This document shows positions 48,023 to 63,799 of a DNA stretch of 64,000 nucleotides, piece after piece. The stretch is from the IMG/VR virus record IMGVR_UViG_3300031951_000015, positions 1 to 64,000 of that record; one strand, given 5' to 3'. The DNA is from a virus. Positions within the stretch are counted from its first letter, which is position 1. Each line of letters starts with the position of its first letter. Below the pieces are notes generated by a model. That model had not been told where the DNA came from and did not search any database. It saw only the letters and a list, made by a program, of their open reading frames with translations. The translations under genes and the position numbers were made by a program.

Positions 48023-48082
48023 AGATTAACCCCCAGCACTGACCCTGCCTAGGGGGATCAGGACAGTCTGCCGATTGGCACA
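48023..48082 (-). promoter_or_regulatory. Dyad-type promoter 1
   Basis: 24-bp dyad at 48059-48082; -10 candidate TAATCT at 48023-48028, 30 bp away on the minus strand. Drives the 74-aa gene. Confidence 0.5.
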
Positions 48083-48094
48083 AGACCCCAGTTT

Positions 48095-48181
48095 GTATAA
48101 AGAATAAGACAGGGATGAATGTAAAGAATAAACCACACCACTGACAATAAATTACATTCAACCCTGAGTTATTCTTTATAC
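48095..48181. repeat. Long imperfect inverted repeat (30-nt arms)
   Basis: Arms 48095-48124 and 48152-48181 match at 27 of 30 positions as inverted repeats, with a 27-nt loop. Each arm starts with GTATAAAGAATAA. A third copy of GTATAAAGAAT follows at about 48192. The transcript would form a long stem; it lies in the 210-bp gap between two genes. Confidence 0.85.
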
Positions 48182-48208
48182 TCAGTGGTAAGTATAAAGA
48201 ATTAAAAA

Positions 48209-48334
48209 CTACTTTTTCTTCTTTCTAGTATTCGCTGCCTTCTTTGCCCCATTAGTTTTTGCTTGAGACTTTACATTCTTGAATCTTTTATCAGGACGGG
48301 ATTTGCCATCCTTGTGAATCCATCTACCAAACAT
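48209..48334 (-). CDS. Small very basic protein, 41 aa
   Basis: 41 residues, MFGRWIHKDGKSRPDKRFKN then many Lys, Arg, Ala. About 40% Lys/Arg. Likely binds nucleic acid or ribosomes. Short but with clean frame and Shine-Dalgarno-like AGGAAG upstream. Confidence 0.6.
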   Translation of the reverse strand: MFGRWIHKDGKSRPDKRFKNVKSQAKTNGAKKAANTRKKKK

Positions 48335-48343
48335 TGTTCTTCC

Positions 48344-48508
48344 TCAGATAAACTTAGCAGGTGAACCACAAGACTTATAGAATGCAATCATTCTTTCTGC
48401 CTCTTCTTTAGTGGTGAAAGATTGTGTTCTCCATTCACAATCATTGTATGGTGATTGATAAGTAATTGTGAACCCGATTGAATTGATTTGTTGTTGATTG
48501 TTGTACAT
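48344..48508 (-). CDS. Small conserved-type protein, 54 aa
   Basis: 54 residues, GFTITYQSPYNDCEWRTQSF then TTKEEAERMIAFYKSCGSPA. A small alpha/beta fold (strand-strand-helix). Two TCTCGWCGAGA palindromes lie in its leader. Confidence 0.65.
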   Translation of the reverse strand: MYNNQQQINSIGFTITYQSPYNDCEWRTQSFTTKEEAERMIAFYKSCGSPAKFI

Positions 48509-48533
48509 GAATCTAGATGTGTTAGGTGTGTGT

Positions 48534-48571
48534 ATCTCGTCGAGATGTATGTATGTGTGTCTCGACGAGAT
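48534..48571. repeat. Two TCTCG(A/T)CGAGA palindromes upstream of the 54-aa gene
   Basis: Exact copies at 48534-48546 and 48560-48571, plus a degenerate copy near 48583. They lie 26-63 bp upstream of the ATG at 48508, an operator-like position. Same element at 52.05-52.14 kb and 54.73-54.93 kb. Confidence 0.7.
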
Positions 48572-48593
48572 AATGTGTGCGCTCTCGACTAGA

Positions 48594-48752
48594 TTATTCT
48601 TTTCGAGATCTAATCTTTGCTTTTCTCATTTCACGAATGAGTGAAAGATAATTTTGTCGTGCAGTTTTTTCTAATTCTGCACATTCATCAGTACGATGAA
48701 GATGCCACTCAGCAAAAGCAGTTTGCCACTCAGAATGTAAAGATTTAATCAT
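48594..48752 (-). CDS. Small helical basic protein, 52 aa
   Basis: 52 residues, MIKSLHSEWQTAFAEWHLHR then a Lys/Arg-rich helix. Stop/start overlap (TGATG) with the upstream 51-aa gene indicates coupling. Function unknown. Confidence 0.6.
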   Translation of the reverse strand: MIKSLHSEWQTAFAEWHLHRTDECAELEKTARQNYLSLIREMRKAKIRSRKE

Positions 48753-48907
48753 CAGTAGTGGTGGTGTGACATAACATTGTTGGGGTCATTGTACCAATCA
48801 GAATCCTCATAAGATTCAGTCATTCGAATCATCAACTCATCAGTAAGTTCAACGACTCCGGTTGTAACTAACTGTAGGATTTCTTCAGCGGTGAGGAATG
48901 TTTGCAT
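48752..48907 (-). CDS. Small acidic protein, 51 aa
   Basis: 51 residues, MQTFLTAEEILQLVTTGVVE onward, ending NNVMSHHHY. Helical, acidic. Follows a GC-rich terminator, so a new unit starts here; no dyad found within the expected distance. Confidence 0.6.
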   Translation of the reverse strand: MQTFLTAEEILQLVTTGVVELTDELMIRMTESYEDSDWYNDPNNVMSHHHY

Positions 48908-48928
48908 GGTTCTGTAGTGTGGTTAAGA

Positions 48929-48947
48929 GGGGGGAATGTTACCCCCC
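48929..48947 (-). terminator. GC hairpin after the 50-aa gene
   Basis: 6-bp GGGGGG/CCCCCC stem with 7-nt loop, 8 nt after the stop at 48955. Confidence 0.6.
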
Positions 48948-48954
48948 GTGAATG

Positions 48955-49107
48955 TTACTTTTGAATGCAGTATCCGTACTCATCAATCGGGAAATCTTCA
49001 TGATTCCAGTGTTCCTGAAGATCCTCCCAATTCTCTTGAATGTATTCATGAAGATCAAGTGCCCGATCTTCTTCCAGTTGGCGGCAGTTGGTGATGGGGT
49101 AGTTCAT
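48955..49107 (-). CDS. Small acidic protein, 50 aa
   Basis: 50 residues, MNYPITNCRQLEEDRALDLH then EYIQENWEDLQEHWNHEDFP. Helical. Leader contains CACACCACACCACTGA instead of a Shine-Dalgarno, as in several neighbours. Promoter TAGACT with dyad 30 bp upstream. Confidence 0.65.
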   Translation of the reverse strand: MNYPITNCRQLEEDRALDLHEYIQENWEDLQEHWNHEDFPIDEYGYCIQK

Positions 49108-49133
49108 TCAGTGGTGTGGTGTGAACTGAGAGA

Positions 49134-49193
49134 AGTCTACAGGGTCAGTGGCGCACCATCTCAGCAGCGGTGGACAGTGCATCCGCTGTCACA
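49134..49193 (-). promoter_or_regulatory. Dyad-type promoter 2
   Basis: Dyad 49170-49193, -10 TAGACT at 49134-49139, gap 30 bp. The dyad lies inside the 3' part of the 38-aa membrane gene. Confidence 0.6.
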
Positions 49194-49261
49194 GTGCGGA
49201 TCGGGCGAATCGGTTCCCAGAGAATCCAGAGCAGTAGGGTTGCGATCATCAGGCGGAGCAT
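49145..49261 (-). CDS. Short membrane protein, 38 aa
   Basis: 38 residues; MLRLMIATLLLWILWEPIRP is a single membrane helix, the rest polar. Short, so moderate confidence. Leader shares CATCCTACCATG with the next gene, suggesting duplicated start regions. Confidence 0.5.
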   Translation of the reverse strand: MLRLMIATLLLWILWEPIRPIRTVTADALSTAAEMVRH

Positions 49262-49293
49262 GGTAGGATTGGCAGTTGCTTTGCTGAGTGCTT

Positions 49294-49431
49294 TCACTTG
49301 AGACCACAGGCAGATGGACGGGTGATGCAGATGCGATCGGCGGCGGATTCTGTGCTAGTATTGACGGTTGCCAATGCCATTTGAGCAACGCCACACGCGA
49401 ACAGGCAGAACAGGAGAGGGAATGCTTTCAT
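49294..49431 (-). CDS. Small exported protein with signal peptide, 45 aa
   Basis: 45 residues. MKAFPLLFCLFACGVAQMALA is a signal peptide ending in an AxA-type site, leaving a mature peptide of about 24 residues with two Cys (ICITRPSACGLK). A disulfide is possible. Function unknown. Confidence 0.6.
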   Translation of the reverse strand: MKAFPLLFCLFACGVAQMALATVNTSTESAADRICITRPSACGLK

Positions 49432-49440
49432 GGTAGGATG

Positions 49441-49456
49441 GGGGGTTGGTGCCCCC
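49441..49456 (-). terminator. GC hairpin after the winged-helix gene
   Basis: 5-bp GGGGG/CCCCC stem directly after the stop at 49465. Confidence 0.5.
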
Positions 49457-49464
49457 GTATTGTA

Positions 49465-49725
49465 TCACCCGAACAGGGCAGCGGCAAGACGATCACGCTT
49501 GCGGATCTTATCGGGAAAAATGCTCCACTGATCACGCTTGCCATCAGGGCGCAGTGTGGCGGTGAGAATGCCCTCCCGCTCCATCTCCACCATAATGGCG
49601 TGAACAGTGCCCTTATGCTTACGGGGGTCCATTCCCATGCCGCGCACAATGTCGCTGCATGTTTGCTCGCCGTTCTGAATCAGTGTGGCGCGGACGGCGG
49701 TGCGGATGGCGGTTCGGAGGTTCAT
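49465..49725 (-). CDS. Winged-helix DNA-binding protein
   Basis: 86 residues. RTAIRTAVRATLIQNGEQTC, then SDIVRGMGMDPRKHKGTVHA and MVEMEREGILTATLRPDGKR follow the helix-helix-recognition-helix-wing order of winged-helix regulators. It is the only clear transcription-factor-like gene inside the GC-rich segment and is itself driven by a dyad promoter, so it is a candidate regulator of that promoter class (inference). Confidence 0.75.
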   Translation of the reverse strand: MNLRTAIRTAVRATLIQNGEQTCSDIVRGMGMDPRKHKGTVHAIMVEMEREGILTATLRPDGKRDQWSIFPDKIRKRDRLAAALFG

Positions 49726-49750
49726 CGGAGTGGTGTGGTGAACTGATACC

Positions 49751-49846
49751 AGTATGGGGGCAGATGGGGGGCAGATCCATCCAGGTTGTGCCAGTGGTCA
49801 GACTGTCCACCGATGCGGGTTTTGCGGGGGATCGGATGCTTATAAT
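49751..49846. promoter_or_regulatory. Bidirectional dyad promoter 3
   Basis: Central dyad 49787-49810. Minus side: CATACT at 49751-49756 (gap 30), driving the winged-helix gene. Plus side: TATAAT at 49841-49846 (gap 30), driving the ncRNA candidate. Symmetric spacing on both sides supports a symmetric activator bound at the dyad. Confidence 0.65.
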
Positions 49847-49852
49847 ACGGGG

Positions 49853-49964
49853 ACAATCAAGAGAGGGGCAGGGTCGCCCCGTTGACGCAAACGGTCGCCA
49901 CCGAACCTGCCTGCCGGTATTATAAAAAAAAGTATAAAGAAAGGGGGCGGATTGTGCCCCCTCT
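49853..49964 (+). ncRNA. Candidate small RNA A, paralogue of 51653-51740
   Basis: Begins just after the plus-strand TATAAT with GGGGACAATC. Contains a stem GGGGC/GCCCC (49865-49880). It ends at a GC hairpin followed by a U-rich tract near 49964. No conserved reading frame. A similar sequence with a compensated stem lies at 51.65 kb. Transcription is inferred. Confidence 0.45.
49943..49961. terminator. Bidirectional GC hairpin terminator
   Basis: Stem GGGGGC/GCCCCC with U-rich sequence on both sides (TTTT on plus, TTTCTTTATAC on minus). Ends the KTSC-like gene on the minus strand and the candidate RNA on the plus strand. Confidence 0.65.
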
Positions 49965-49978
49965 TTTATACTTTAGGA

Positions 49979-50251
49979 TCAGACTTCGATCTGTTCAATG
50001 TCACCATGCTTCAGAGCACGGTTAAACAACTGACCCCAAGATGTTGCCGCTTTGTCTTCATCATTGGAGAGAAGTGCAAACCAACGCTCACACTCACCTT
50101 CATCTTCCCAAGCGTAGCGATAAACTTTATCGCTGCTGTTAAATGTCACCAGCAGATCGTAACAATCCCCATCGGCGCGAACAATAGCAAGATGGGCGAT
50201 GGCGCTGGATTGAACGCTGGCGCTGATCGTGAAGTCGGTTGCGGTTGCCAT
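49979..50251 (-). CDS. KTSC-like domain protein
   Basis: 90 residues from the ATG at 50251 (MATATDFTISASVQSSAIAH). VTFNSSDKVYRYAWEDEGE, then SWGQLFNRALKHGDIE fits the KTSC domain (strand with YRY, helix with S-x-G-x-xF-N). KTSC domains occur alone or fused to RNA-related enzymes; function open. The upstream extension of the frame is excluded because the promoter lies inside it. Confidence 0.7.
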   Translation of the reverse strand: MATATDFTISASVQSSAIAHLAIVRADGDCYDLLVTFNSSDKVYRYAWEDEGECERWFALLSNDEDKAATSWGQLFNRALKHGDIEQIEV

Positions 50252-50276
50252 AGTGTCGTTTGCGGTTGACTCTGTA

Positions 50277-50337
50277 AGTCTACAGGATAGGTGGGGGGCA
50301 TCCGCGCCCCCCGTGTGCATCTTAACGATCTGTCACA
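50277..50337 (-). promoter_or_regulatory. Dyad-type promoter 4
   Basis: Dyad 50314-50337 overlaps the stop of the DUF7227-like gene; -10 TAGACT at 50277-50282 (gap 31) or TATCCT at 50284. A 7-bp GC hairpin (50293-50312) lies in the gap. Confidence 0.55.
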
Positions 50338-50999
50338 ATGGCGTCAACTGCCTTCTTAGCAGTCCCGTGTGCAGGAAATGCTATAATAAACTCACGGTCG
50401 GATTGTTGACACAAACCGCAGGTGCTGCAGTTAACTTTACCCTTGTGAATCTTAGCAGGGCAAACAACAACCTTACGACCGCTCTCAGTGTTAAAGAACC
50501 GCCGCGATTCTGTGGAAGGAACAACAGCAACCGCAGGGATTCCGTGCTCTGACATAACCGAATCAGCAACCTCTACGGATTCTGTGCTCACGTTGACTGT
50601 GAACCCGTTAGCGTTAGCGTTCTGAATCACTTTTAGGTTGTGATCATTCAGAACGTGGTGAGTGTAGGTGAAACCTTTCTTGCCACGATTTGCCCGCACA
50701 AGTGCATCAACCATCAGCGGATTGATGTCACCTAAGAGATGCGGGAGATCCCCAGTTACGTTATGACGCCATAAAGAATTGGGGGCAAATTTACGAACCT
50801 TGGAGATAAACTCATCCCAAGATACGCCGCGCTCGTGATTAGAAACCTTGCGCCAATGTACACCCTGTAGATGATACTTACCGTAGCACCCTGTTTCATA
50901 AAAAGGGCAGGCAGTTGAGCAGGATGCCCGTTCTGTGACGGTGGTGGGGATCGGTCCCGTGTTGCTGTTGCCTGAGGCGGTGGTGATGGCGACTTGCAC
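50322..50999 (-). CDS. Cysteine-rich DUF7227-like protein
   Basis: 225 residues from a GTG at 50999. CSTACPFYETGCYGKYHLQG near the N-terminus and CPAKIHKGKVNCSTCGLC near the C-terminus supply seven to eight Cys that could hold a metal or Fe-S cluster. The central HNVTGDLPHLLGDINPLMVD and YTHHVLNDHNLKVIQNANAN suggest an alpha/beta barrel-like core. The family is found in phages and plasmids; its activity is, to my knowledge, not established. The GTG follows a CACCACACCACC leader. Confidence 0.75.
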   Translation of the reverse strand: MQVAITTASGNSNTGPIPTTVTERASCSTACPFYETGCYGKYHLQGVHWRKVSNHERGVSWDEFISKVRKFAPNSLWRHNVTGDLPHLLGDINPLMVDALVRANRGKKGFTYTHHVLNDHNLKVIQNANANGFTVNVSTESVEVADSVMSEHGIPAVAVVPSTESRRFFNTESGRKVVVCPAKIHKGKVNCSTCGLCQQSDREFIIAFPAHGTAKKAVDAIVTDR

Positions 51000-51025
51000 G
51001 GTGGTGTGGTGCGGTTGACCTTTTA

Positions 51026-51084
51026 AGTATAGGGGTTGGGGGCACCCTGTCGATGCCCCCTGTGCCACCTTGCCAACTGTCACA
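51026..51084 (-). promoter_or_regulatory. Dyad-type promoter 5
   Basis: Dyad 51061-51084 overlaps the stop of the 140-aa gene, -10 TATACT at 51026-51031, gap 29. A GGGGGCA/TGCCCCC hairpin (51038-51060) fills the gap and may terminate the upstream gene. Confidence 0.7.
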
Positions 51085-51502
51085 CCTTCCAGAGTTTCTC
51101 TTCAATCAGGCGATCAATCAGTGCCTTAGAGAGTGAACCACAGTGCTCACAATGCGATTCCAGGTTGATACGTTCATGCAGAGAATTACGATAGCAGTAA
51201 TGCTGAAAGGATGCAAAATGCCAGCGATAAACTGCACTCAGAGTCTGCAGATACTTACGGAAGACAACATAATCCGAATAATCTGAGAACCTTCTGATTG
51301 TATGATAAACAGAGTTAAATCCCCGAAAATCTGTAGTGTGGCGATTGCGACCACGACAATACTTAAGAGTATTCATAATCACCTCAGTGTAATGCTCATT
51401 GAAAAACTTTGAGGTGACTTCTTGACAAATACGATCCAAATCTTTGATCTGGTTGGAGTTAAGATCCTGATCCAGGGAAGGATTAAAGAAAGGGGTGTTC
51501 AT
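51080..51502 (-). CDS. Hypothetical protein, 140 aa, with C-terminal CxxC
   Basis: 140 residues from MNTPFFNPSLDQDLNSNQIK. Helical with many aromatic and basic residues; HCEHCGSLSKALIDRLIEEK near the end is a possible half zinc site. The long upstream frame is unlikely to be coding: the ATG at 51502 follows the C-rich leader typical of this region. Confidence 0.65.
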   Translation of the reverse strand: MNTPFFNPSLDQDLNSNQIKDLDRICQEVTSKFFNEHYTEVIMNTLKYCRGRNRHTTDFRGFNSVYHTIRRFSDYSDYVVFRKYLQTLSAVYRWHFASFQHYCYRNSLHERINLESHCEHCGSLSKALIDRLIEEKLWKV

Positions 51503-51587
51503 GGTGGTGGGGTGGTGTGTGGTCGGCGTCAGTGGTGCGCCGTTGACGGAATGATGAACGATGAGAACCTGCCACCACAAGCGGGTT

Positions 51588-51646
51588 TGTGCCACCTTTA
51601 GAACTGGCACAACCCACCGGGTTTTGATGCGGTCTGGCAGTATCCT
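51588..51646 (+). promoter_or_regulatory. Dyad promoter 6 (plus-strand side)
   Basis: Near-perfect dyad 51588-51611 (TGTGCCA and TGGCACA ends). TATCCT at 51641-51646 on the plus strand, gap 29, followed by the candidate RNA. On the minus side only a weak CATCAT lies at the expected place. Confidence 0.55.
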
Positions 51647-51652
51647 ATGGGG

Positions 51653-51740
51653 ACAATCAGATGAGGGGAGGGGTATCCCTGTGGACGACAACACATCGCC
51701 ACCGCCCCTGCCATAAAATAATAGAATGTGAAGAATAGTA
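51653..51740 (+). ncRNA. Candidate small RNA B, paralogue of 49853-49964
   Basis: Starts with GGGGACAATC after TATCCT. Shares GAGGGG, GACG, TCGCCACCG and CCTGCC blocks in order with candidate RNA A. The stem GGGGA/TCCCT replaces GGGGC/GCCCC, a compensatory change. 3' end not defined. Confidence 0.45.
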
Positions 51741-51744
51741 AAAA

Positions 51745-51766
51745 GGATCAGGCACCACCCTGATCC
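51745..51766 (-). terminator. Terminator of the 62-aa gene unit
   Basis: 8-bp stem GGATCAGG/CCTGATCC, 6-nt loop, five U on the minus strand. Confidence 0.8.
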
Positions 51767-51793
51767 TCAGCGTCCACATCACCTTAACCATGC

Positions 51794-51869
51794 TAGAATT
51801 ATCTGTTCGCTTCGTGGGTGACTTTCTTTTAGCGGAGGCAAACCCCTTCCTCCTTGTCTTATAATTCTA
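51794..51869 (-). other. Possible structured RNA at the 3' end of the 62-aa gene
   Basis: 9-bp perfect outer arms (51794-51802, 51861-51869) enclose two smaller hairpins (GGAGG/CCTCC and CGCT/AGCG). It would form a three-way junction overlapping the stop codon. Could be chance in AT-rich arms. Confidence 0.3.
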
Positions 51870-52047
51870 CCATCCAGTCTGGGTCATTGTCAAGTGTTGC
51901 CCAGAAATGATTGCGACCGTTCAATGATGTGAGAAACACTTTGTTACCTTTGTGTTGCTCAATGATGCAGATCTCGATGCGATTCATGATGTTCGAGAAT
52001 CTGTTCTTTGCTTTCTTCGAGATTGGTGTAACAGATGCAGTTTGCAT
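51859..52047 (-). CDS. Small protein, 62 aa
   Basis: 62 residues from MQTASVTPISKKAKNRFSNI. RIEICIIEQHKGNKVFLTSL then NGRNHFWATLDNDPDWMVEL looks like a small beta sheet with a C-terminal acidic tail. The ATG at 52047 is chosen because the upstream frame is built from palindrome and promoter sequence. Confidence 0.7.
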   Translation of the reverse strand: MQTASVTPISKKAKNRFSNIMNRIEICIIEQHKGNKVFLTSLNGRNHFWATLDNDPDWMVEL

Positions 52048-52052
52048 GATGG

Positions 52053-52139
52053 TCTCGTCGAGATGTGCATAATCTAGTTGATCTTGCTGATCTCGTCGAG
52101 AGAGGTGTACCACTAGATGAACTGGCACACCTCGACGAG
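52053..52139. repeat. Three TCTCG(A/T)CGAGA palindromes around a dyad promoter
   Basis: Copies at 52053-52064, 52091-52101 and 52131-52139, with a degenerate one near 52152. They flank the -10 box (52071-52076) and the dyad (52106-52129) of the 62-aa gene, so two regulatory elements are interleaved. Confidence 0.7.
52071..52129 (-). promoter_or_regulatory. Dyad-type promoter 7
   Basis: Dyad 52106-52129, -10 TAGATT at 52071-52076, gap 29. Confidence 0.6.
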
Positions 52140-52141
52140 TT

Positions 52142-52288
52142 TCAGAACTGGATCTCGTCTAGTGTTGGAACATTATCTTGACTAGATTCACTGCTGTCCA
52201 CCCCATCACAGAGTACATCAAGAATGTGAAGGATGTCGTTCCCATTTTTGCCTTGGCGAAGTTGAGAGATCAGAAGTTGTTTGGTCAT
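52142..52288 (-). CDS. Small conserved cyanophage protein, 48 aa
   Basis: 48 residues, MTKQLLISQLRQGKNGNDIL then HILDVLCDGV. The TKQLL-GNDIL-HILD pattern is familiar from small cyanophage proteins. Overlaps the upstream gene by 4 bp. Confidence 0.7.
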   Translation of the reverse strand: MTKQLLISQLRQGKNGNDILHILDVLCDGVDSSESSQDNVPTLDEIQF

Positions 52289-52467
52289 TGTGCAGATTCC
52301 TCCAGCAGTTCGGGATAGTATTCTTCACACTCAGTAATCAATTCTTCATCCGAATACTTTGCATAACCCTCATCCAGATAATCATAACAAAGTTGGGTCA
52401 TTGTCTTGAGGTCCATGTCATCCAACATCTGCTGAATGAGTTGATCTTGAAGTTCAGTGCGGTTCAT
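52285..52467 (-). CDS. Small acidic cyanophage protein, 60 aa
   Basis: 60 residues. LCYDYLDEGYAKYSDEELIT followed by ECEEYYPELLEESAQ is a familiar small-cyanophage-protein pattern. First of a row of tightly packed small genes up to 53.5 kb. Confidence 0.75.
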   Translation of the reverse strand: MNRTELQDQLIQQMLDDMDLKTMTQLCYDYLDEGYAKYSDEELITECEEYYPELLEESAQ

Positions 52468-52469
52468 AA

Positions 52470-52739
52470 TCAGTTAGCGTAGAGGGGCAGTTTCTTACGG
52501 AGGCGGATTGCGTCCTCCAATACATCACCAATCTGTTCGTAGATGTAGTCGCAACCTCCCACATCACAGAGAACATCTTGAGTGAAAAGTTCAGGAAAAC
52601 GATGCTCTTCTGTCATTTCCTCATTATACTCAAAAACATCGTTTTGAGTGAATACAAACGCAGCACAACCTGCGTCCTCACCTTGACTCTCAATCAGTTG
52701 GTTGATAGAGTCACGAAGTTCAGAAAGAGTGCGGTACAT
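52470..52739 (-). CDS. Hypothetical protein, 89 aa
   Basis: 89 residues, LSELRDSINQLIESQGEDAG then AAFVFTQNDVFEYNEEMTEE. Two-layer alpha/beta appearance, acidic. Function unknown; co-directional with 2-bp spacing to neighbours. Confidence 0.75.
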   Translation of the reverse strand: MYRTLSELRDSINQLIESQGEDAGCAAFVFTQNDVFEYNEEMTEEHRFPELFTQDVLCDVGGCDYIYEQIGDVLEDAIRLRKKLPLYAN

Positions 52740-52741
52740 AA

Positions 52742-52918
52742 TCAGAAACGAATTACAGGGTGGTCAACATCAAGGACATCACATTCATCAGTTGTAAATG
52801 CAAGATCTACATCAAGTTGAATGTGTTGATCTTCCCAACTGTTGTAGATGCAAACATCCTGATTCAGTTGTTCTTCATTCAGTTGTTGCAACTGTTGCAG
52901 AAGTTCCTTGTAAGTCAT
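52742..52918 (-). CDS. Small acidic protein, 58 aa, Gln-rich N-terminus
   Basis: 58 residues, MTYKELLQQLQQLNEEQLNQ then DVCIYNSWEDQHIQLDVDLA. N-terminal helix and C-terminal strands. It resembles the 89-aa neighbour in layout, so both may come from duplication. Confidence 0.65.
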   Translation of the reverse strand: MTYKELLQQLQQLNEEQLNQDVCIYNSWEDQHIQLDVDLAFTTDECDVLDVDHPVIRF

Positions 52919-53091
52919 CAGTCGTCTCCGAAGTTGTTGGTGAGGAAGTCTTCAAGTTCAATGAGTTTGCTGTCACTTAGAGAGACAATGTACTCATCGA
53001 CAATCATAGCAAGAAGGTCGTGATCTTCCCTGCATTTAGCATACAAAAACTCAAAGAGTTCTGTGCCCGTAGAGTAACGAAGGTCAGTCAT
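52918..53091 (-). CDS. Small acidic protein, 57 aa
   Basis: 57 residues, MTDLRYSTGTELFEFLYAKC then IVSLSDSKLIELEDFLTNNF. Helical. One-base overlaps (TGATG) on both sides. Confidence 0.65.
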   Translation of the reverse strand: MTDLRYSTGTELFEFLYAKCREDHDLLAMIVDEYIVSLSDSKLIELEDFLTNNFGDD

Positions 53092-53240
53092 CAGAAATCG
53101 TTGAGACAGTGACGGTAGGTTTGATTCAAACGAATGAGAATGTCATTCCAAAACTCTACATCCTCATCATCATTGTATTGGTTGTTCTCTTCAACCAAAC
53201 GAATCAGATTGTTGAGATCGTGAGGAGTGAGATAGTTCAT
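53091..53240 (-). CDS. Small acidic protein, 49 aa
   Basis: 49 residues, MNYLTPHDLNNLIRLVEENN then VEFWNDILIRLNQTYRHCLN. Helical, Asn-rich. One-base overlap with the next gene. Confidence 0.65.
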   Translation of the reverse strand: MNYLTPHDLNNLIRLVEENNQYNDDEDVEFWNDILIRLNQTYRHCLNDF

Positions 53241-53389
53241 CAAACTTCATCCCGCATTTCAGAGAGTTTGTCATAGAGTGCGGAAACATCGCACCCCACA
53301 ATTTCACTCACTTCATCCCAATCATCATGAAACTCTATCAGCGCCAGAAGCGCATCCAGTTCTTCAAAAGTCAGAGCAGTGAGAGTCAT
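53240..53389 (-). CDS. Small acidic protein, 49 aa
   Basis: 49 residues, MTLTALTFEELDALLALIEF then SEIVGCDVSALYDKLSEMRD. It shares the layout of its 49-aa neighbour (helix, acidic middle, helix), suggesting a small family. Confidence 0.65.
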   Translation of the reverse strand: MTLTALTFEELDALLALIEFHDDWDEVSEIVGCDVSALYDKLSEMRDEV

Positions 53390-53523
53390 TTGTCTTTAGA
53401 GCGACGGTGACGGTCAGAAGCGGTAGGGTCAGGATCATAAACCCCCAACCCCATCCGATCCTCATAGTAGAACATGGCACCGAACATTGTCAAGATGCCA
53501 GCACCCAGAATCAGAGTAACCAT
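53386..53523 (-). CDS. Small membrane protein, 45 aa
   Basis: 45 residues; MVTLILGAGILTMFGAMFYY is one membrane helix, then a basic soluble tail (SDRHRRSKDK). Overlaps its neighbours by 1-4 bp. Confidence 0.65.
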   Translation of the reverse strand: MVTLILGAGILTMFGAMFYYEDRMGLGVYDPDPTASDRHRRSKDK

Positions 53524-53663: not shown

Positions 53664-53689
53664 GTGGTGTGTGGTTGGTTGACTCTTGT

Positions 53690-54137: not shown

Positions 54138-54161
54138 TGGTGTGTGGTGTTGAACAATGTC

Positions 54162-54405: not shown

Positions 54406-54429
54406 GAGTTCTAATGTTTCAACGCAACC

Positions 54430-54488: not shown

Positions 54489-54489
54489 A

Positions 54490-57303: not shown

Positions 57304-57307
57304 GATT

Positions 57308-57514: not shown

Positions 57515-57523
57515 GTTTTATTT

Positions 57524-58417: not shown

Positions 58418-58442
58418 GAGTTGGTTTGTTTGGTATGCAATC

Positions 58443-58502
58443 AGTATAAGGGCAGAGTGTGAGCAGAGTCAGGGCAGAGTGGACAGTTGTTCGACTGTCA
58501 CA
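58443..58502 (-). promoter_or_regulatory. Dyad-type promoter 12
   Basis: Dyad 58479-58502 (GACAGT/ACTGTC core) overlaps the stop of the 108-aa gene; TATACT at 58443-58448, gap 30. GCCCTTATACT is the same junction as in promoters 8 and 11. Confidence 0.7.
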
Positions 58503-58824
58503 CCCCCAGCAGTTCTCTTTGCTCTGGTGTGAGAGATTCAATCAGTTCTTTACGCTTTTGTGCCTTGATTTCTTTCTCTTGTTGTTTCGTAATCATTTCA
58601 TCCAGAATGTTATCCATTGTGTAGAAATCATAATCCCCAGTATCCCAACTGGATTCACCTTCGTTGTCAATGAAAATGGATTGTTTATAGTTATTGCCAT
58701 CATCGTGCCAATCACAATACAGAGTGATTTTATAACCTTCATCAGTTTGACGAAAGGTTGCTCCACAAGGAGAAACTCTTTGTGCTTTGGTGAGAAAATT
58801 AAGAAGTTCAGTTGCAGTAATCAT
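58498..58824 (-). CDS. Hypothetical protein, 108 aa
   Basis: 108 residues. SPCGATFRQTDEGYKITLYC then SIFIDNEGESSWDTGDYDFY, followed by a Lys/Glu-rich helix (KQQEKEIKAQKRKELIESLT). Beta sheet plus coiled helix. Function unknown. Confidence 0.75.
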   Translation of the reverse strand: MITATELLNFLTKAQRVSPCGATFRQTDEGYKITLYCDWHDDGNNYKQSIFIDNEGESSWDTGDYDFYTMDNILDEMITKQQEKEIKAQKRKELIESLTPEQRELLGV

Positions 58825-58825
58825 T

Positions 58826-58999
58826 TCAGTTGCACTCAGAGTGAAGAATGTCTAGCATTTGTTGATGATAGTTGTCAGCATCACGAATCACATTTGCTGC
58901 CTCTGATACATCTTCAATTTCGTATTGTGTCATCTCCAGAGAGTGAATCACATTGGAGAGAAGTTCAGTCAGAGCATCAATCTTTTGTGCGTCGGTCAT
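58826..58999 (-). CDS. Small helical acidic protein, 57 aa
   Basis: 57 residues, MTDAQKIDALTELLSNVIHS then EDVSEAANVIRDADNYHQQM. Helical bundle likely. Overlaps the upstream membrane gene by 23 bp. Confidence 0.7.
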   Translation of the reverse strand: MTDAQKIDALTELLSNVIHSLEMTQYEIEDVSEAANVIRDADNYHQQMLDILHSECN

Positions 59000-59213
59000 T
59001 GCCATTCCACTTCAAAGTTTTGGGGTTCAGATACTTGCGACCATAATAACTTGCGTTCTGATAAGGTTCATAGAACAGACCTGCAAAGGCATAAACTTGA
59101 TACACAAAGAACCAATGAATACCCTTCCAAATCGAATCAATTGCAAGTAAAACAAGAGTAATGCCCACATAGACAATGATCTTTGTTCTGTGAAGAATTA
59201 TATTGCGGGTCAT
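58977..59213 (-). CDS. Membrane protein, 78 aa
   Basis: 78 residues; IIVYVGITLVLLAIDSIWKG and HWFFVYQVYAFAGLFYEPYQ are two likely membrane segments, then a charged tail. Overlaps both neighbours by a few bases. Confidence 0.7.
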   Translation of the reverse strand: MTRNIILHRTKIIVYVGITLVLLAIDSIWKGIHWFFVYQVYAFAGLFYEPYQNASYYGRKYLNPKTLKWNGNDRRTKD

Positions 59214-59386
59214 TTGATTGTTCTCAGTTGGTTGAGTTGGTAAGCAATTCTACATGCTTCAAGTGTACTCTCACACTCACTGCAACAATATGAAAGTCCG
59301 AATGGAAGATTACGATAGATTCGATTCTCTTCCACCCGATAAGATCCTGATGCTTTGATTAGATTGTTCAACAAAAATCTAGTCAT
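59210..59386 (-). CDS. Small Cys-containing protein, 58 aa
   Basis: 58 residues from MTRFLLNNLIKASGSYRVEE. Contains GLSYCCSECESTLEACRIAY, four Cys in 14 residues, which may bind a metal. The start at 59386 overlaps the stop of the previous gene by 8 bp. Confidence 0.65.
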   Translation of the reverse strand: MTRFLLNNLIKASGSYRVEENRIYRNLPFGLSYCCSECESTLEACRIAYQLNQLRTIK

Positions 59387-59648
59387 TGTTGTAAGGAGGA
59401 TTATCAAAACGATGCATCCAAAGAGCATGAGACCGCTCTCGCAATTCCAGAATCATATTATACTTCTGTTTGACTGGAGAATCATCAGGCAAATCATAGA
59501 TTTCACTGTAACCAGTAAAATCATAGGCATCAAGAGCATGATTTAGAATATTATTGATTACATCATGCTCTTCAAATGAAAATTGCATTGTGACTGGTTT
59601 TTGATCACAATAGTTGGTTTCATTGAGTTCAATCATTGGAACGTCCAA
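59379..59648 (-). CDS. Hypothetical protein, 89 aa
   Basis: 89 residues from a TTG at 59648, placed 6 nt after a perfect AAGGAGG Shine-Dalgarno; an ATG four codons later is the alternative start. EEHDVINNILNHALDAYDFT then LELRERSHALWMHRF. Function unknown. Confidence 0.7.
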   Translation of the reverse strand: MDVPMIELNETNYCDQKPVTMQFSFEEHDVINNILNHALDAYDFTGYSEIYDLPDDSPVKQKYNMILELRERSHALWMHRFDNPPYNND

Positions 59649-59674
59649 GAGAATCCTCCTTGTGGAATACATGT

Positions 59675-59733
59675 ATTATACAGCAGATTATCCTGCTTTA
59701 GATTGGCAGTGTGCCAGTGTTTAAACTGTCTAC
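59675..59733 (-). promoter_or_regulatory. Dyad-type promoter 13
   Basis: Dyad 59710-59733 overlaps the stop of the 20-aa frame; TATAAT at 59675-59680, gap 29. Confidence 0.7.
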
Positions 59734-59792
59734 CGATTTGACACAAATGCCAGAATGACACCAAAAATAAGACCAGTAGCGAACAGTTTCAT
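59730..59792 (-). CDS. Tiny membrane peptide, 20 aa (uncertain)
   Basis: MKLFATGLIFGVILAFVSNR is a single membrane helix with clean start and stop between two genes. Such mini membrane proteins are frequent in cyanophages, but the length gives little statistical support. Confidence 0.4.
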   Translation of the reverse strand: MKLFATGLIFGVILAFVSNR

Positions 59793-59793
59793 T

Positions 59794-59943
59794 TCAGAAG
59801 ATCGGAACAATTTCAACATTAGTGAATCCTTCTTGAATGACATGTTTTTCCCAAAATGATGCATCCTCAATTTTATAGAATGTTGCAACTTGTTTGGATT
59901 GTTTGTTCTTTTTGTTTTTCAGGTAAATCACTTGGTACTTCAT
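59794..59943 (-). CDS. Small basic protein, 49 aa
   Basis: 49 residues, MKYQVIYLKNKKNKQSKQVA then EDASFWEKHVIQEGFTNVEI. Strand-helix-strand. Overlaps the upstream membrane gene by 71 bp. Confidence 0.6.
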   Translation of the reverse strand: MKYQVIYLKNKKNKQSKQVATFYKIEDASFWEKHVIQEGFTNVEIVPIF

Positions 59944-60163
59944 AAAAATGTAAATGAATGGTTTCTCCGTCGTTCCAGTGTCTTAAGACTCCTGCAACAA
60001 TGAAAATATTAGTAAGAAGATAAGTGAGGAATATAACAGTCCGTATACTAGCAATGTAATCTGATTCGTTGTCATTTTTAGACGCTTTCTCCCCCAATGC
60101 TTTTGCCCACCAACGCCACAACGTTTTTCTCTTCTTCGTATACTGATTTTCTAGTTGTGACAT
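59873..60163 (-). CDS. Conserved cyanophage membrane protein, 96 aa
   Basis: 96 residues. Basic N-terminus NQYTKKRKTLWRWWAKALGE and a membrane segment TVIFLTYLLTNIFIVAGVLR followed by HW. The KKRKTLWRWWAKALGEKASK motif is familiar from cyanophage genomes. Overlaps the upstream gene by 86 bp in another frame. Confidence 0.75.
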   Translation of the reverse strand: MSQLENQYTKKRKTLWRWWAKALGEKASKNDNESDYIASIRTVIFLTYLLTNIFIVAGVLRHWNDGETIHLHFYEVPSDLPEKQKEQTIQTSCNIL

Positions 60164-60365
60164 ACTTTAATTCATTCCATTGATTATGGTAACATAAAAC
60201 TAACAATCTGTCATTACGATGAAGACGACAGGCATTGTAATTTTGCAAATCCTTTGGTTGAACAGATGCTTCAATTGTAATATATTCATCACTCTTAAAG
60301 TATACCCATCCCTCAACACCTTTTGTCCATGTTACATAATCATTGACTTCAGGGATATAATTCAT
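60078..60365 (-). CDS. Conserved cyanophage protein, 95 aa
   Basis: 95 residues from MNYIPEVNDYVTWTKGVEGW. The VTWTKGVEGWVYF and EYITIEASVQPKD segments are familiar from cyanophage genomes. Beta-rich. Start at 60365 overlaps the upstream gene by 4 bp (ATGA). Confidence 0.75.
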   Translation of the reverse strand: MNYIPEVNDYVTWTKGVEGWVYFKSDEYITIEASVQPKDLQNYNACRLHRNDRLLVLCYHNQWNELKYVTTRKSVYEEEKNVVALVGKSIGGESV

Positions 60366-60649
60366 ACAAAACATGACTCCAATGCGGTTAGTTTTGGCAC
60401 CATTGCACTATAAGGTGTTGTATTTCTTATGTCCACCGATTGTCCAACACTTTTGGAGTTGATGGGGGAATGATAGGTTCTAGTTTTGGTGTTGTAGAAT
60501 CCCCAGATACAACAAACGGGATCACCACCATTGTAAATAAACCTACGCTGATAATGAATCCAAATTGCAACAACATTCTGTTTAAAGTCTGTCTGCTCAT
60601 AATAGTAACCTTTAGGTGCTTTATGTGGAAAATCAGTAATCATCTCCAT
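60362..60649 (-). CDS. Conserved cyanophage protein, 95 aa
   Basis: 95 residues. APKGYYYEQTDFKQNVVAIW, then CCIWGFYNTKTRTYHSPINS and the TTPYSAM end are familiar small-cyanophage motifs. Function unknown. Confidence 0.75.
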   Translation of the reverse strand: MEMITDFPHKAPKGYYYEQTDFKQNVVAIWIHYQRRFIYNGGDPVCCIWGFYNTKTRTYHSPINSKSVGQSVDIRNTTPYSAMVPKLTALESCFV

Positions 60650-60932
60650 ATTCTAATCCAGATTCAGCATTCATCATTTCAACAGTCGTTTGGAATTTTT
60701 TTGCGATGGTAAGATCATGAGTCTTTCCAATGTCGTAGATTGCTTCAACATCGTAGGTTGGTGCAGTAATCCAACTAAATCCCTTGCCAAAAGTATTATC
60801 AGGGTTGACCACATACCAATGGCAAGCAGTGTCAGGGACGAATACAGAACATTTTTTCCAGTCATTGTCCCATTGTGGCACTTGTACAAATGATAATGCA
60901 GCAAACAGAAAACCAAAAAGACTCAGAAACAT
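60633..60932 (-). CDS. Exported protein, 99 aa
   Basis: 99 residues. MFLSLFGFLFAALSFVQVPQ is a signal peptide or membrane anchor. The rest (WKKCSVFVPDTACHWYVVNP) has two Cys that could form a disulfide, consistent with export. Overlaps the next gene by 17 bp. Confidence 0.7.
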   Translation of the reverse strand: MFLSLFGFLFAALSFVQVPQWDNDWKKCSVFVPDTACHWYVVNPDNTFGKGFSWITAPTYDVEAIYDIGKTHDLTIAKKFQTTVEMMNAESGLEYGDDY

Positions 60933-61093
60933 CAGTTGTCAATAACAGCACGAAGATTATTGGGGTTATGTCCCAAAGAAAGATAATTATTCAACATAAG
61001 ATCACACTGTTCTTTTGTTAGTTTTTGTGCCTCATCATCAATCAAGGTCCATCCAGTGGTATACAATTCTTCAATACGATAGAGTTTTGTCAT
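60932..61093 (-). CDS. Small conserved cyanophage protein, 53 aa
   Basis: 53 residues. YRIEELYTTGWTLIDDEAQK then LTKEQCDLMLNNYLSLGHNP and NNLRAVIDN is a familiar small-cyanophage pattern. Function unknown. Confidence 0.75.
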   Translation of the reverse strand: MTKLYRIEELYTTGWTLIDDEAQKLTKEQCDLMLNNYLSLGHNPNNLRAVIDN

Positions 61094-61320
61094 GTGGTAA
61101 ATGCCTCCAGAATACCCGATTCATACTCATCAACAAGTGCAAACTTCTGAGAATTGACAACACGTTCCATAATACGATCTGTGTAACGATCATCAAATGA
61201 TTGTTCTTTTGAGAGAATCTCAAATGCTTCAGTGTCGTTACTTGCAATTAAATTGATTAGACCACCATATTCACTAGAAGGAAATGGCACCCAGTAATCA
61301 ATAATGTAAAGATACTTCAT
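61090..61320 (-). CDS. Conserved cyanophage protein, 76 aa
   Basis: 76 residues. YIIDYWVPFPSSEYGGLINL then ASNDTEAFEILSKEQSFDDR. Alpha/beta. Overlaps the downstream gene by 4 bp. Function unknown. Confidence 0.75.
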   Translation of the reverse strand: MKYLYIIDYWVPFPSSEYGGLINLIASNDTEAFEILSKEQSFDDRYTDRIMERVVNSQKFALVDEYESGILEAFTT

Positions 61321-61333
61321 CGGTTTTTGTAAA

Positions 61334-61504
61334 TTACTTTTTTATTTTAGAGGAATGATTCAAATTTGTCAACTGACGTTGAAGTTCAATTTGAATTGAC
61401 ATTAGATGAGAATATAGAAATTGTTGATACTCATTATCCTTTATCAATGATGTCAGATTATCAATTTGCATTAATGCGAGAATGAGTTTTGTTTGTTGAT
61501 TCAT
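61334..61504 (-). CDS. Small helical protein, 56 aa
   Basis: 56 residues, LILALMQIDNLTSLIKDNEY then QQFLYSHLMSIQIELQRQLT. Helical hairpin typical of small cyanophage proteins. ATGA overlap with the upstream gene. Confidence 0.7.
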   Translation of the reverse strand: MNQQTKLILALMQIDNLTSLIKDNEYQQFLYSHLMSIQIELQRQLTNLNHSSKIKK

Positions 61505-61683
61505 ATAAATTCTGCCATATAATAATCAACAGTTACTTCTAACTCGCTTGCTTTTTGTTCATAAAACAATTCAGTATACTTTTCTGCTTCTTGCCATTTC
61601 TGATGTGAATCAATTTCGGTTTCAGAATGTTTCATGAAATCTTCAAAAGCAGACATAAATTGCTGAATATCTTTTTCGTTCAT
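61501..61683 (-). CDS. Small acidic helical protein, 60 aa
   Basis: 60 residues, MNEKDIQQFMSAFEDFMKHS onward, helical and acidic. Overlaps neighbours by 4 and 1 bp. Function unknown. Confidence 0.7.
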   Translation of the reverse strand: MNEKDIQQFMSAFEDFMKHSETEIDSHQKWQEAEKYTELFYEQKASELEVTVDYYMAEFI

Positions 61684-61931
61684 CAGCAGGCACCGTTCAT
61701 AGGATTGACATTTTTAACTTCAGTGTTGAACCCAGTCACTTCCCAACCCAATCCAATGCGTTCATCCATCTCACGTTGAAAGTCACGCATCGTGATACAC
61801 TTGTAAGACATAGCATCAACACCACGAAACTTGAGCACTTTGAACATGTGACGAGTGCTATCTTTGACAGGAAAGTAATCCACAGTCATGGAGGGTTCAC
61901 CGTCAATCTTGGAGAAGGTAGACAGTTGCAT
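61683..61931 (-). CDS. Hypothetical protein, 82 aa
   Basis: 82 residues, MFKVLKFRGVDAMSYKCITM then RDFQREMDERIGLGWEVTGF. Alpha/beta; first gene of the operon after dyad promoter 14. Confidence 0.7.
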   Translation of the reverse strand: MQLSTFSKIDGEPSMTVDYFPVKDSTRHMFKVLKFRGVDAMSYKCITMRDFQREMDERIGLGWEVTGFNTEVKNVNPMNGAC

Positions 61932-61956
61932 CAGAGTCTCTCTCGATTACCTCTGT

Positions 61957-62015
61957 ATTATAGGTCAGAAAGAGGGCACCACATCGTTGCGTAGACCAGT
62001 TTGCGAACTGTCCAT
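61957..62015 (-). promoter_or_regulatory. Dyad-type promoter 14
   Basis: Dyad 61992-62015, TATAAT at 61957-61962, gap 29; the leader GAGGTAATCGAGAGAG resembles the start of the two candidate RNAs. Confidence 0.7.
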
Positions 62016-62168
62016 TTGTTCAAAAACTGAATAGAGTTTGTTATACAGTGCTGGAACACTTCCGTATTCCCGTGCAATCTGATGTTCCTCACGCAAAGTT
62101 AGAGTCTGTAGTGCAGATAGAATTACACCGATTTCATGCACATTCAGATTTACAATAGTTTCAGTCAT
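61965..62168 (-). CDS. Small protein, 67 aa
   Basis: 67 residues, MTETIVNLNVHEIGVILSAL then REEHQIAREYGSVPALYNKL. Two helices. The stop lies inside promoter 14. Function unknown. Confidence 0.7.
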   Translation of the reverse strand: MTETIVNLNVHEIGVILSALQTLTLREEHQIAREYGSVPALYNKLYSVFEQMDSSQTGLRNDVVPSF

Positions 62169-62318
62169 TTAATTCTCCATCATTGAATTAATTTTGTCAA
62201 TAATAATACTACATTCATCAGCATAATCTTCTTCTTCTAACATTCCTTCTTGCTCAACAGCGTCCAGAATGATCTCCCACTCACGTTCGGTAAAAAACTC
62301 TTTGATTGATTGTTTCAT
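62169..62318 (-). CDS. Small acidic protein, 49 aa
   Basis: 49 residues, MKQSIKEFFTEREWEIILDA then VEQEGMLEEEDYADECSIII. Helical, acidic. One-base overlap with the upstream exported gene. Confidence 0.7.
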   Translation of the reverse strand: MKQSIKEFFTEREWEIILDAVEQEGMLEEEDYADECSIIIDKINSMMEN

Positions 62319-62683
62319 CAGTCCCAAGATACATTTTCAAGAAGAACTCCAGGCATTACATAAGTCCAACCAGTTCCACCAGGTTTGTAATCCCACTTGT
62401 ATTCATATTTGTTGTGACTATCCCAAGTCATATATCCTTTTTCTTTATCAAATCGCCCCTTGATCGTCAGAGCAAACTTATTAGAGAAAATATTGCGAGT
62501 GCGAAGCGCACCGCTCTTTTCCCGAGTTTCAATCACAACACAAGTATCCTCAAAGAACTCAGTACCAGACTCAATTCCACAGGGAGTTTCATAGCGAAAC
62601 GGACGATACGTTGAAGTTTGCTGCTGTTGTGCGAATACAGGAGACGCAAGAAGAAAAAAGGAAAGAAAAATAGATTTCATCAT
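62318..62683 (-). CDS. Secreted protein with signal peptide, 121 aa
   Basis: 121 residues. MMKSIFLSFFLLASPVFAQQ is a classical signal peptide with an AxA-type site before QQQ. The mature part (CGIESGTEFFEDTCVVIETR) has two Cys and beta strands. It would act in the periplasm or thylakoid lumen. Driven by dyad promoter 15. Confidence 0.75.
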   Translation of the reverse strand: MMKSIFLSFFLLASPVFAQQQQTSTYRPFRYETPCGIESGTEFFEDTCVVIETREKSGALRTRNIFSNKFALTIKGRFDKEKGYMTWDSHNKYEYKWDYKPGGTGWTYVMPGVLLENVSWD

Positions 62684-62718
62684 TTGTGAGTCTGCTTGTG
62701 TCGGATAATGACCTTCAT

Positions 62719-62777
62719 ATTATACTGCCTGAGTCAAGCGGTTAGGAAAAAACTGTACCACTTCTGGAACTGGTACA
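62719..62777 (-). promoter_or_regulatory. Dyad-type promoter 15
   Basis: TATAAT at 62719-62724; dyad 62754-62777 with TGTACCA/TGGTACA ends, gap 29. Found by looking for a dyad at the distance set by the others. Confidence 0.7.
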
Positions 62778-63196
62778 TTCAGTTCGTCAAACAAATACTC
62801 AAGATATAGGGTTTCTTCTTGTTCCCGTGCCTCAATTTCGTGTGGTTGATGCCAATACTCATACTTCTCTACGGGTTCTTTAGAATAACACAATTTTCCA
62901 TAACGAACCCGCAACGAACCATCTACCCACTGCCGCATATGCGTCAGTTCATGCAAAAGAGTTTTTATATACAATTCCTCATTCATGTAAGTATCAAGTT
63001 CAATTTGAAATTCACGAGGACGATACTGCTTATCTATTATATCACAATATCCATTGACACCTTCACGTTTCAAACCACGATGAATAATATCAATGACAAT
63101 CTTATGGCGTGGAAAGAATTTATTCAGAAACCAAGCGGTAACATCCTCACAGACCCGTTTGCGATAACCGTATCCACAATGAATGAAGTAAGACAT
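62720..63196 (-). CDS. SprT-like zinc metalloprotease domain protein
   Basis: 158 residues from MSYFIHCGYGYRKRVCEDVT. H82-E-L-T-H86 is the HExxH zinc motif, followed by MRQW and a later HEIEA (near residue 123) that could give the third ligand. Layout and size fit SprT/minigluzincin-like proteases. Target unknown; in phages such proteins may degrade host or virion proteins. The longer frame to 63217 adds seven residues but no better start context. Confidence 0.8.
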   Translation of the reverse strand: MSYFIHCGYGYRKRVCEDVTAWFLNKFFPRHKIVIDIIHRGLKREGVNGYCDIIDKQYRPREFQIELDTYMNEELYIKTLLHELTHMRQWVDGSLRVRYGKLCYSKEPVEKYEYWHQPHEIEAREQEETLYLEYLFDELNVPVPEVVQFFPNRLTQAV

Positions 63197-63260
63197 TGCC
63201 CCCAATGCAAAAACCAAATGAAACTTGAAACAAACAGAAGTTTTTCTTTAGCAGTCATAC

Positions 63261-63719
63261 TCAACGAGCATAGAGATAAGAACCACACCAATCTGCATTC
63301 TCAAGCAACCATTCACGATCACTGATCAAACGCAGATCATAGCGAACACCTTTGGCGGGCGCTTTCCAACTGGAACTTTTGTAAACTTCACCAGTCTTCT
63401 TGTCAATGAAGCAGTGAACACTCCTGCTCCCATTTGCAACCATAATGATTTTGTGATACTTGCGACCCGTTTCAGGGTAGAACTCATAACCACAATTGCC
63501 GTTCTTCAGGTCAGTGATACATGCTTTGTGATACTCAACAGAGGTAACAGCACCAGCAAGAGAAAAAGTCAAAACAGACTGCTCATGAGACTTGATGCTG
63601 TAATCAATAAAGTTCTGACGCAGTGCCTCACAGAGAGCATAGGTGTGACCCAGAACTGCCTCTGCGATGTTCTTCCGTGCCTCTGCTTGGGCGGAGTAAT
63701 CAGCGAAGGTGGTCGTCAT
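63261..63719 (-). CDS. Conserved cyanophage protein, 152 aa
   Basis: 152 residues from MTTTFADYSAQAEARKNIAE. HCFIDKKTGEVYKSSSWKAP followed by AKGVRYDLRLISDREWL is a familiar motif set in T4-like cyanophages. Alpha/beta. Start at 63719 chosen because the -10 box lies just upstream. Confidence 0.75.
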   Translation of the reverse strand: MTTTFADYSAQAEARKNIAEAVLGHTYALCEALRQNFIDYSIKSHEQSVLTFSLAGAVTSVEYHKACITDLKNGNCGYEFYPETGRKYHKIIMVANGSRSVHCFIDKKTGEVYKSSSWKAPAKGVRYDLRLISDREWLLENADWCGSYLYAR

Positions 63720-63740
63720 CGGTTCGTTGCGTATGTGCTT

Positions 63741-63799
63741 ATTATAGGGCACCCAGAGGGGTCTGGGATGCCCCGTGTGCCAGTTGTTAGAGTGTCACT
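63741..63799 (-). promoter_or_regulatory. Dyad-type promoter 16
   Basis: Dyad 63776-63799 overlaps the stop of the prohibitin-like gene; TATAAT at 63741-63746, gap 29. A GC hairpin (63747-63775) fills the gap and may end the upstream gene. Confidence 0.75.

Follow-up and report, generated by a model that had tools for sequence, protein, structure and literature searches.

Repeated dyads in the accessory region of a cyanomyovirus

We analysed bases 1–64000 of the 174,667-b IMG/VR record IMGVR_UViG_3300031951_000015 (the window, 64,000 nucleotides of viral DNA), and scanned the rest of the genome as well, for a repeated 24-bp dyad that lies upstream of TATAAT-like −10 boxes. The record is a T4-like cyanomyovirus with psbA-family genes at 150–153 kb; among named phages it comes closest to the Synechococcus phages S-SRM01 and S-SKS1, with ~77–79% identity over short stretches. 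The dyads occupy an accessory/early region of small minus-strand open reading frames (ORFs) of unknown function (48000–64000, extending to ~81 kb of the record). Pfam searches with ten proteins of this region matched only DUF7227, GP88, DUF6267 and DUF7717, and the protein families of dyad-downstream genes are nearly all of unknown function.

An earlier note on this DNA had listed 16 dyads, and all of them were found where it had placed them. We built a symmetrised position-weight matrix from these 16, scanned the full genome and employed dinucleotide shuffles as the background. At a matrix score of at least 20, there are 15 genome positions compared to 0.07 expected, and at a score of at least 16, there are 23 compared to 0.4 expected. 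When each dyad was left out in turn, all 16 still scored at least 12.2 (range 12.2–27.6). The scan of the remaining 110 kb of the genome added more copies outside the window. For five of these (64437, 70153, 73425, 74467 and 79027), nothing but the dyad matrix was used to locate them, and all five are followed at a gap of 29 or 30 bp by a TATAAT-like box with at least five of six matches, an out-of-sample success for the spacing rule. Two weaker dyads lie at 80208 (gap 27) and 171434 (gap 24), and the other genome matches, in different regions and without a box, look like chance.

The window dyads are aligned with the transcription direction of the minus-strand genes, and about half of them (7/16, for reading frames of at least 60 codons), rather than most as had been claimed, overlap the preceding stop codon. 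The claim of a box 29 or 30 bp away for fifteen dyads and 31 bp away for one was somewhat overstated, and is clean for only part of the set: a minus-strand box with at least five of six matches at gap 29 or 30 accompanies 9/16 dyads, 5/16 have only 4/6 boxes at 29–31 bp, and the weak dyad at 48059–48082 has no convincing −10 at these distances. TATAAT stands at gap 29 from the dyads at 56322–56345, 59710–59733, 61992–62015, 62754–62777 and 63776–63799 (predicted +1 at 56280, 59668, 61950, 62712 and 63734, respectively), with a GGAGG and a start codon 20 nt past the +1 of the second. The box is TATATT for 54465–54488 (gap 29, predicted +1 at 54423) and TATACT for 51061–51084, 53725–53748 (both gap 29, predicted +1 at 51019 and 53683) and 58479–58502 (gap 30, predicted +1 at 58436). 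Among the poorer boxes, TAGACT lies at gap 30 from 49170–49193 and at gap 31 from the weak dyad at 50314–50337, and TAGATT and TAAATT lie at gap 29 from 52106–52129 and 54197–54220. All of these read on the minus strand. The dyad at 51588–51611 has weak boxes on both strands (minus CATCAT at gap 31, plus TATCCT at gap 29) and was given no strand. Contrary to the earlier note's orientation, the promoter at 49787–49853 is probably rightward, because the dyad at 49787–49810 has a perfect TATAAT (49841–49846) at gap 30 on the plus strand; its minus strand offers only CATACT.

Some spacers between dyad and −10 box contain a stem. Such stems are strong at 51061 (GGGGGCAT...GTGCCCCC), 53725 (AGGGCAC...GTGCCCCT, z −3.1), 63776 (GGGGCATCCCAG...CTGGGTGCCC, z −4.3) and 64437, and by energy also at 50314 (GGGGGGC...GCCCCCC). 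Strong stems are found at ~5/21 of this phage's own sites and at ~20% of 111 IMG/VR sites (among the matches listed). A spacer stem as a general feature was rejected, the mean z being only −0.6 to −0.9.

The same unit in other cyanophages

Scanning IMG/VR with TGTGMCASTTNNNNAASTGKCACA, while ignoring any −10 box, returned at least 120 stretches, with 194 unique sites among the matches listed. At these 194 sites, gap 29 holds 76 TATAAT-like boxes and gap 30 holds 46, compared to 2.3 per other gap, and the complete dyad-N29/30-TATAAT unit is found in >100 IMG/VR stretches as well as in S-PM2, P-SSM2, P-HM2, S-CRM01, S-SRM01 and Mic1. Syn9, P-HM2, S-PM2 and P-SSM2, isolates outside the matrix, have 26 boxes at gap 29 and 12 at gap 30, compared to 0.6 elsewhere. 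Far from being equally common at other distances from −10 boxes, the dyads strongly prefer gaps of 29 and 30 bp in IMG/VR and in the isolates.

Counted at three mismatches or fewer, dyads number 22 in S-CRM01, 18 in S-SRM01, 13 each in S-PM2 and P-SSM2, 11 in P-HM2, 7 each in Syn9 and P-SSM4, 6 in S-RSM4 and 50 in the Microcystis siphophage Mic1. At the same threshold there are none in the podovirus P-SSP7 or the Microcystis myovirus LMM01, and coliphage T4 has one, the same as its control (1). The dyads of P-SSM2, S-PM2, P-HM2 and Syn9 cluster among small genes of unknown function. The gene psbA, tried as an indicator that the IMG/VR records are cyanophages, proved uninformative on fragments (3/21).

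The earlier note had seen no −35 hexamer. This is correct in the window, and relatives do show a TTGAC-like hexamer: their gap-30 members have TTGAC(T) exactly 7 bp past the dyad and a 17-bp spacer to the −10 box, and their gap-29 members have a weaker version and a 16-bp spacer. The hexamer's constant 7-bp distance therefore fixes the dyad's position relative to the −35, and the gap alternates between 29 and 30 bp because the −35/−10 spacer is 16 or 17 bp. If TATAAT is numbered −12 to −7, the dyad extends from ~−42 to −65, with its near edge at ~−41/−42 and its centre at ~−54. The predicted +1 is a purine in 88–93% of the oriented phage promoters, and the promoter-proximal half of the phage dyads is better conserved than the distal half (13.9 versus 10.3 bits). 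In the same promoters, +2 is T in 83–88% and the start is often RTAA, a stronger signature than a purine at the start site alone.

The high copy number in a hypervariable region, together with the tandem arrays of Mic1 described below, could also mark recombination sites or an iteron-like replication origin, with the promoter being incidental. We consider this very improbable, as the distance and orientation to the −10 box are fixed and a spontaneous deletion in S-PM2 ends away from dyads. The ends of this 'ORFanage' deletion, 5799 and 15339, have no dyads, and dyad-mediated recombination was rejected as its cause. The deletion (AJ630128, 5799–15339) takes out the S-PM2 dyads at 8573, 9853 and 11347, and a stem-loop known from the literature in this phage (11369–11391) directly follows a dyad.

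The dyad matches the promoter element of host yfr2 genes

We collected yfr2 copies from 61 Cyanobiaceae genomes, picked by the RNA model alone, which gave 52 unique upstream regions. De novo motif discovery found nTGTGACAGTTGAAnTAgcGnCC in 78% of these regions, mostly 41–46 nt before GTGAGGAG. When this host motif was scanned blind over the phage genome, phage dyads made up the top 8/8 and 25/30 top matches, covering 17 distinct dyads, with the dyad at 58479 as the best match genome-wide. In the reverse direction, the phage matrix scored at least 15 on 17/25 class-wide yfr2 promoters, at 42–47 nt, compared to 0/167 control windows. The half-site TGTG(A/C)CAGTT is common to both, and the distance from dyad edge to transcript start is 41–47 nt in yfr2 (to GTGAGGAG) and 41–42 nt in the phage (predicted +1). 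Because the reciprocal motif searches and the position agree, we take the phage dyad to be the same thing as the host yfr2 element, in the same place. Judged by these motif matches, the element is not phage-specific, a host origin that the earlier note had missed; it is the yfr2/Cyano-1 promoter element of the host.

We take the Rfam family Cyano-1 (RF01701) to be the Yfr2 small RNA (sRNA) family, with which it shares the GTGTGTGAGGAG 5′ end and the GAAACA loop (cf. PMC2662882). The dyad lies upstream of Cyano-1 RNAs in Nostoc, Cyanocohniella, Cyanothece, an uncultured cyanobacterium and a Synechococcales metagenome-assembled genome, with a −10-like box at gap 30 in 4/5 cases. A GTDB scan for the exact palindrome returned 44 stretches, compared to ~4 expected from a rough letter-count estimate; at least 13 of the 44 are cyanobacterial, the five just named included. 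Otherwise, in 15 picocyanobacterial genomes, dyads are little above chance (1–10 versus 1–7 in the control). In Fischerella, Westiellopsis, Cyanocohniella and a Nostocales genome (L153, L160, L171 and L172), a dyad stands directly before an ORF with a repeated N-terminus, MGTEFPTREQNFPPEN..., which is not yfr2.

With 10-bp arms, a 4-nt loop and a location at gene ends, the dyad could be read as an RNA stem-loop, either one at which the upstream gene's transcript is terminated or processed or the stem-loop part of a PeSL cassette (early promoter plus stem-loop), which is known in T4-like phages (cited in PMC4503421). The pairing data refute an RNA hairpin. Among the matches listed, positions 5/20 pair in 57/101 oriented sites, with no excess over independence, and positions 8/17 pair in only 20/101, with G-G or C-C in 81. 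Because the half-sites do not covary, the dyad acts as DNA. Moreover, the real terminator stems are separate, in the spacer, and in host yfr2 genes the element is upstream of the promoter. A role as an RNA stem-loop is almost certainly wrong.

A host GntR regulator as the candidate activator

All cyanobacteria share the GntR regulator PMM1637. It binds yfr2 promoters with a CGRE1 element, a motif that in MED4 is confined to these promoters, and it mediates Yfr2 induction in high light and nitrogen starvation (PMC6778093). PMM1637 is PlmA, a protein universal in cyanobacteria and confined to them (PMC7344720). Based on the shared yfr2 promoters, the dyad is most likely CGRE1. As the dyad is the host yfr2 element, its activator would therefore most likely be PlmA and not a phage protein. 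Exactly one GntR gene was found in 4/5 picocyanobacterial genomes searched, the fifth being a 1.1-Mb, probably partial genome.

A short distance before plmA, three picocyanobacteria have a weak dyad in which one half, ATTGTCAC, is conserved (1390–1413 in L273, 1390–1413 in L271 and 1386–1409 in L275), which could be a sign of weak autoregulation. We rejected PlmA autoregulation as an additional link, as the sequences upstream of plmA are only weakly dyad-like and the literature reports no autoregulation. Acidobacteria, including Pyrinomonadaceae SSF56, carry perfect TGTGACANTT-N4-AANTGTCACA palindromes (L133, L140, L144, L150, L162 and L165), six of them in one genome. To our knowledge, PlmA is not expected in Acidobacteria, and another regulator sharing the motif may be responsible there.

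A phage-encoded activator, analogous to MotA or Ogr, would instead make the dyads a delayed-early or middle promoter class. Most genes of the region are unknown, which leaves room for an unrecognised DNA-binding protein, and a centre at ~−54 is comparable to where P2 Ogr and other phage activators bind. Yet the same element occupies the same position before host yfr2 genes across cyanobacteria, and it is common to two unrelated lineages, the T4-like myoviruses and Mic1, neither of which has a GntR gene. The GntR domain (PF00392) was found in none of 21 dyad-bearing IMG/VR records, this phage included, and in none of 9 named phages, 30 dyad-bearing viral records in total. A host-supplied factor is favoured because both lineages use the same element. 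The MarR regulator of P-SSP7 was rejected as a dyad binder; P-SSP7 lacks dyads and the MarR protein binds downstream of the transcription start site.

The timing of expression in Mic1 bears on the same choice. RNA sequencing assigned 23 early genes to Mic1 (gp49–gp73 without gp61 and gp67), with gp49 and gp69–gp73 peaking at 0.5 h (PMC11237433). We found that all 49/49 Mic1 dyads at the matrix threshold sit at this early block, the last four just past gp73. A dyad precedes the start codon by no more than 130 bp in 13/23 early genes compared to 0/75 others (Fisher, 2e-10), the actual distance being 68–80 bp, and 5/6 immediate-early E1 genes have one. Dyad genes therefore include those that peak at 0.5 h, which argues against a phage-encoded activator and, with the shared host element, makes it an improbable source of activation.

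Tandem dyad arrays with a 57–62-bp period, many without a −10 box, are found in Mic1 (MN013189, 65948–72125) and in L041, L046 and L084. Some of their dyads have TTGACA 7 bp further, and up to 19 dyads lie between gp69 and gp70 of Mic1. A cooperative promoter and a PlmA sponge are both possible functions.

GntR proteins are often repressors. The host regulator could thus repress, or the phage dyads could act as a sponge that titrates PlmA, with the −10 boxes used by plain sigma70; the 57–58-bp arrays of Mic1, with many dyads lacking a −10 box, fit titration. Several observations make repression or titration unlikely. The dyad is upstream of the −35, clear of the core polymerase footprint, and the single-phase spacing and weak −35 fit activation. 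Almost all strong dyads of myoviruses come with a −10 box of their own, and PMM1637 is the reported mediator of Yfr2 induction (PMC6778093).

The single-phase spacing, the weak or absent −35, the purine at the predicted +1 and the Mic1 early genes favour an early promoter class that depends on an activator and has a symmetric site upstream, in support of the earlier proposal of an early or middle class. We put at roughly 75% the probability that the phage dyads are copies of the host yfr2 element, most likely CGRE1, and form an early promoter class activated by host PlmA. Within it, the binding of PlmA to phage dyads is inferred, as is an activating and not a repressing effect. Several points weigh against this interpretation. 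Equating the dyad with CGRE1 draws on the element shared by yfr2 promoters, and the motif alone cannot name the protein because Acidobacteria also carry perfect palindromes. Picocyanobacterial yfr2 keeps the distal half-site, whereas the phages keep the proximal half more strongly, and no individual dyad accompanies 10/23 early genes of Mic1.

If PlmA is the activator, host PlmA dimers already present upon infection would bind the phage dyads at ~−54 and recruit the host sigma70 RNA polymerase via upstream contacts, with sigma region 4, the C-terminal domain of the alpha subunit or both. Recruitment would compensate for the weak −35 next to a near-consensus −10 box, and many small early genes could be transcribed ahead of any phage protein. 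Where the spacer has a terminator-like stem, the unit may both end the upstream transcript and start the next one. A phage would gain from copying such a promoter: that of yfr2a is very strong, on a level with psbA2, and is stimulated by light (PMC2662882). More speculatively, and with doubt, cyanophage early transcription as a whole might be gated by a host nitrogen/carbon and redox sensor, as PlmA interacts with the PII-PipX complex and is targeted by thioredoxin (PMC7344720, PMC5083789). The first phage genes would then read the host's nitrogen, light and redox state directly, and dense arrays as in Mic1 would also drain PlmA from yfr2 and rewire the Yfr1/Yfr2 network.

Comparison with known systems

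A close likeness is to the yfr2/Cyano-1 promoters, which have the same half-site and the same distance to the transcript start and were found by independent motif discovery. They occur at 1–5 copies per host genome and drive an sRNA, with a degenerate proximal half in picocyanobacteria, whereas the phages have ~6–50 near-palindromic copies that drive protein genes. PhoB, acting at Pho boxes, controls cyanophage genes in S-PM2d and pstS in P-SSM2 (PMC10976474) and, like the dyads under activation by PlmA, is a case of cyanophage promoters employing a host transcription factor. It serves a few stress-responsive metabolic and replication genes, whereas the dyads would serve a whole early promoter class through a different regulator.

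The dyad promoters share with T4 MotA middle promoters a sigma70 −10 box and an activator site in place of the −35, and differ in site and position. As had been claimed, the dyad is not a MotA box; its centre lies at ~−54 rather than ~−30, and cyanomyoviruses have no motA (PMC2984593). NtcA sites have been predicted in cyanophages (PMC3037559). The distinctions from the NtcA box and the CRP site likewise stand: GTA-N8-TAC near −41.5 is absent from the dyad consensus, and TGTGA-N6-TCACA does not fit a 24-bp dyad with half-site TGTGMCAGTT, where the spacing is wrong.

In the P2 Ogr and P4 delta late promoters, a TGT-N12-ACA dyad has its centre near −55 and precedes a sigma70 promoter whose −35 is poor; the activator is a phage-encoded zinc-finger protein. 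P2 Ogr promoters thus resemble the phage dyads in dyad position and promoter type, and differ in their TGT-N12-ACA site and in serving late genes. The PeSL cassettes of T4-type phages, reportedly an early promoter plus a stem-loop (Arbiol 2010, Comeau 2014), are like the dyad units in being compact intergenic promoters, here with a terminator stem in a minority, that are repeated in a hypervariable region; we know of no symmetric activator site in them.

Cyanomyoviruses lack MotA, AsiA, Alt and Mod, and the means by which they regulate early and middle transcription have long been in question (PMC2984593). The dyads offer a testable answer for many abundant marine and freshwater phages, namely a host sRNA promoter element copied many times, with a named host protein as the candidate that reads it. 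This would explain strong early genes despite weak −35 boxes and may connect the way infection depends on light and nitrogen with a single host regulator. PhoB already provides an example of cyanophages drawing on a host transcription factor (PMC10976474); new here is that one host sRNA promoter element, copied many times and in several phage lineages, underlies an entire early promoter class. In the literature searched, we found no link of PlmA/CGRE1 or yfr2 promoters to phages; the primary CGRE1 paper (Lambrecht 2018) was outside this search and may mention phage sites.

The same genome has two further features. A wcaG RNA motif is found at 170536–170633 (L010, 6536–6633), and a group I intron lies near two tRNA genes at 91117–91303 (L006, 7117–7303).

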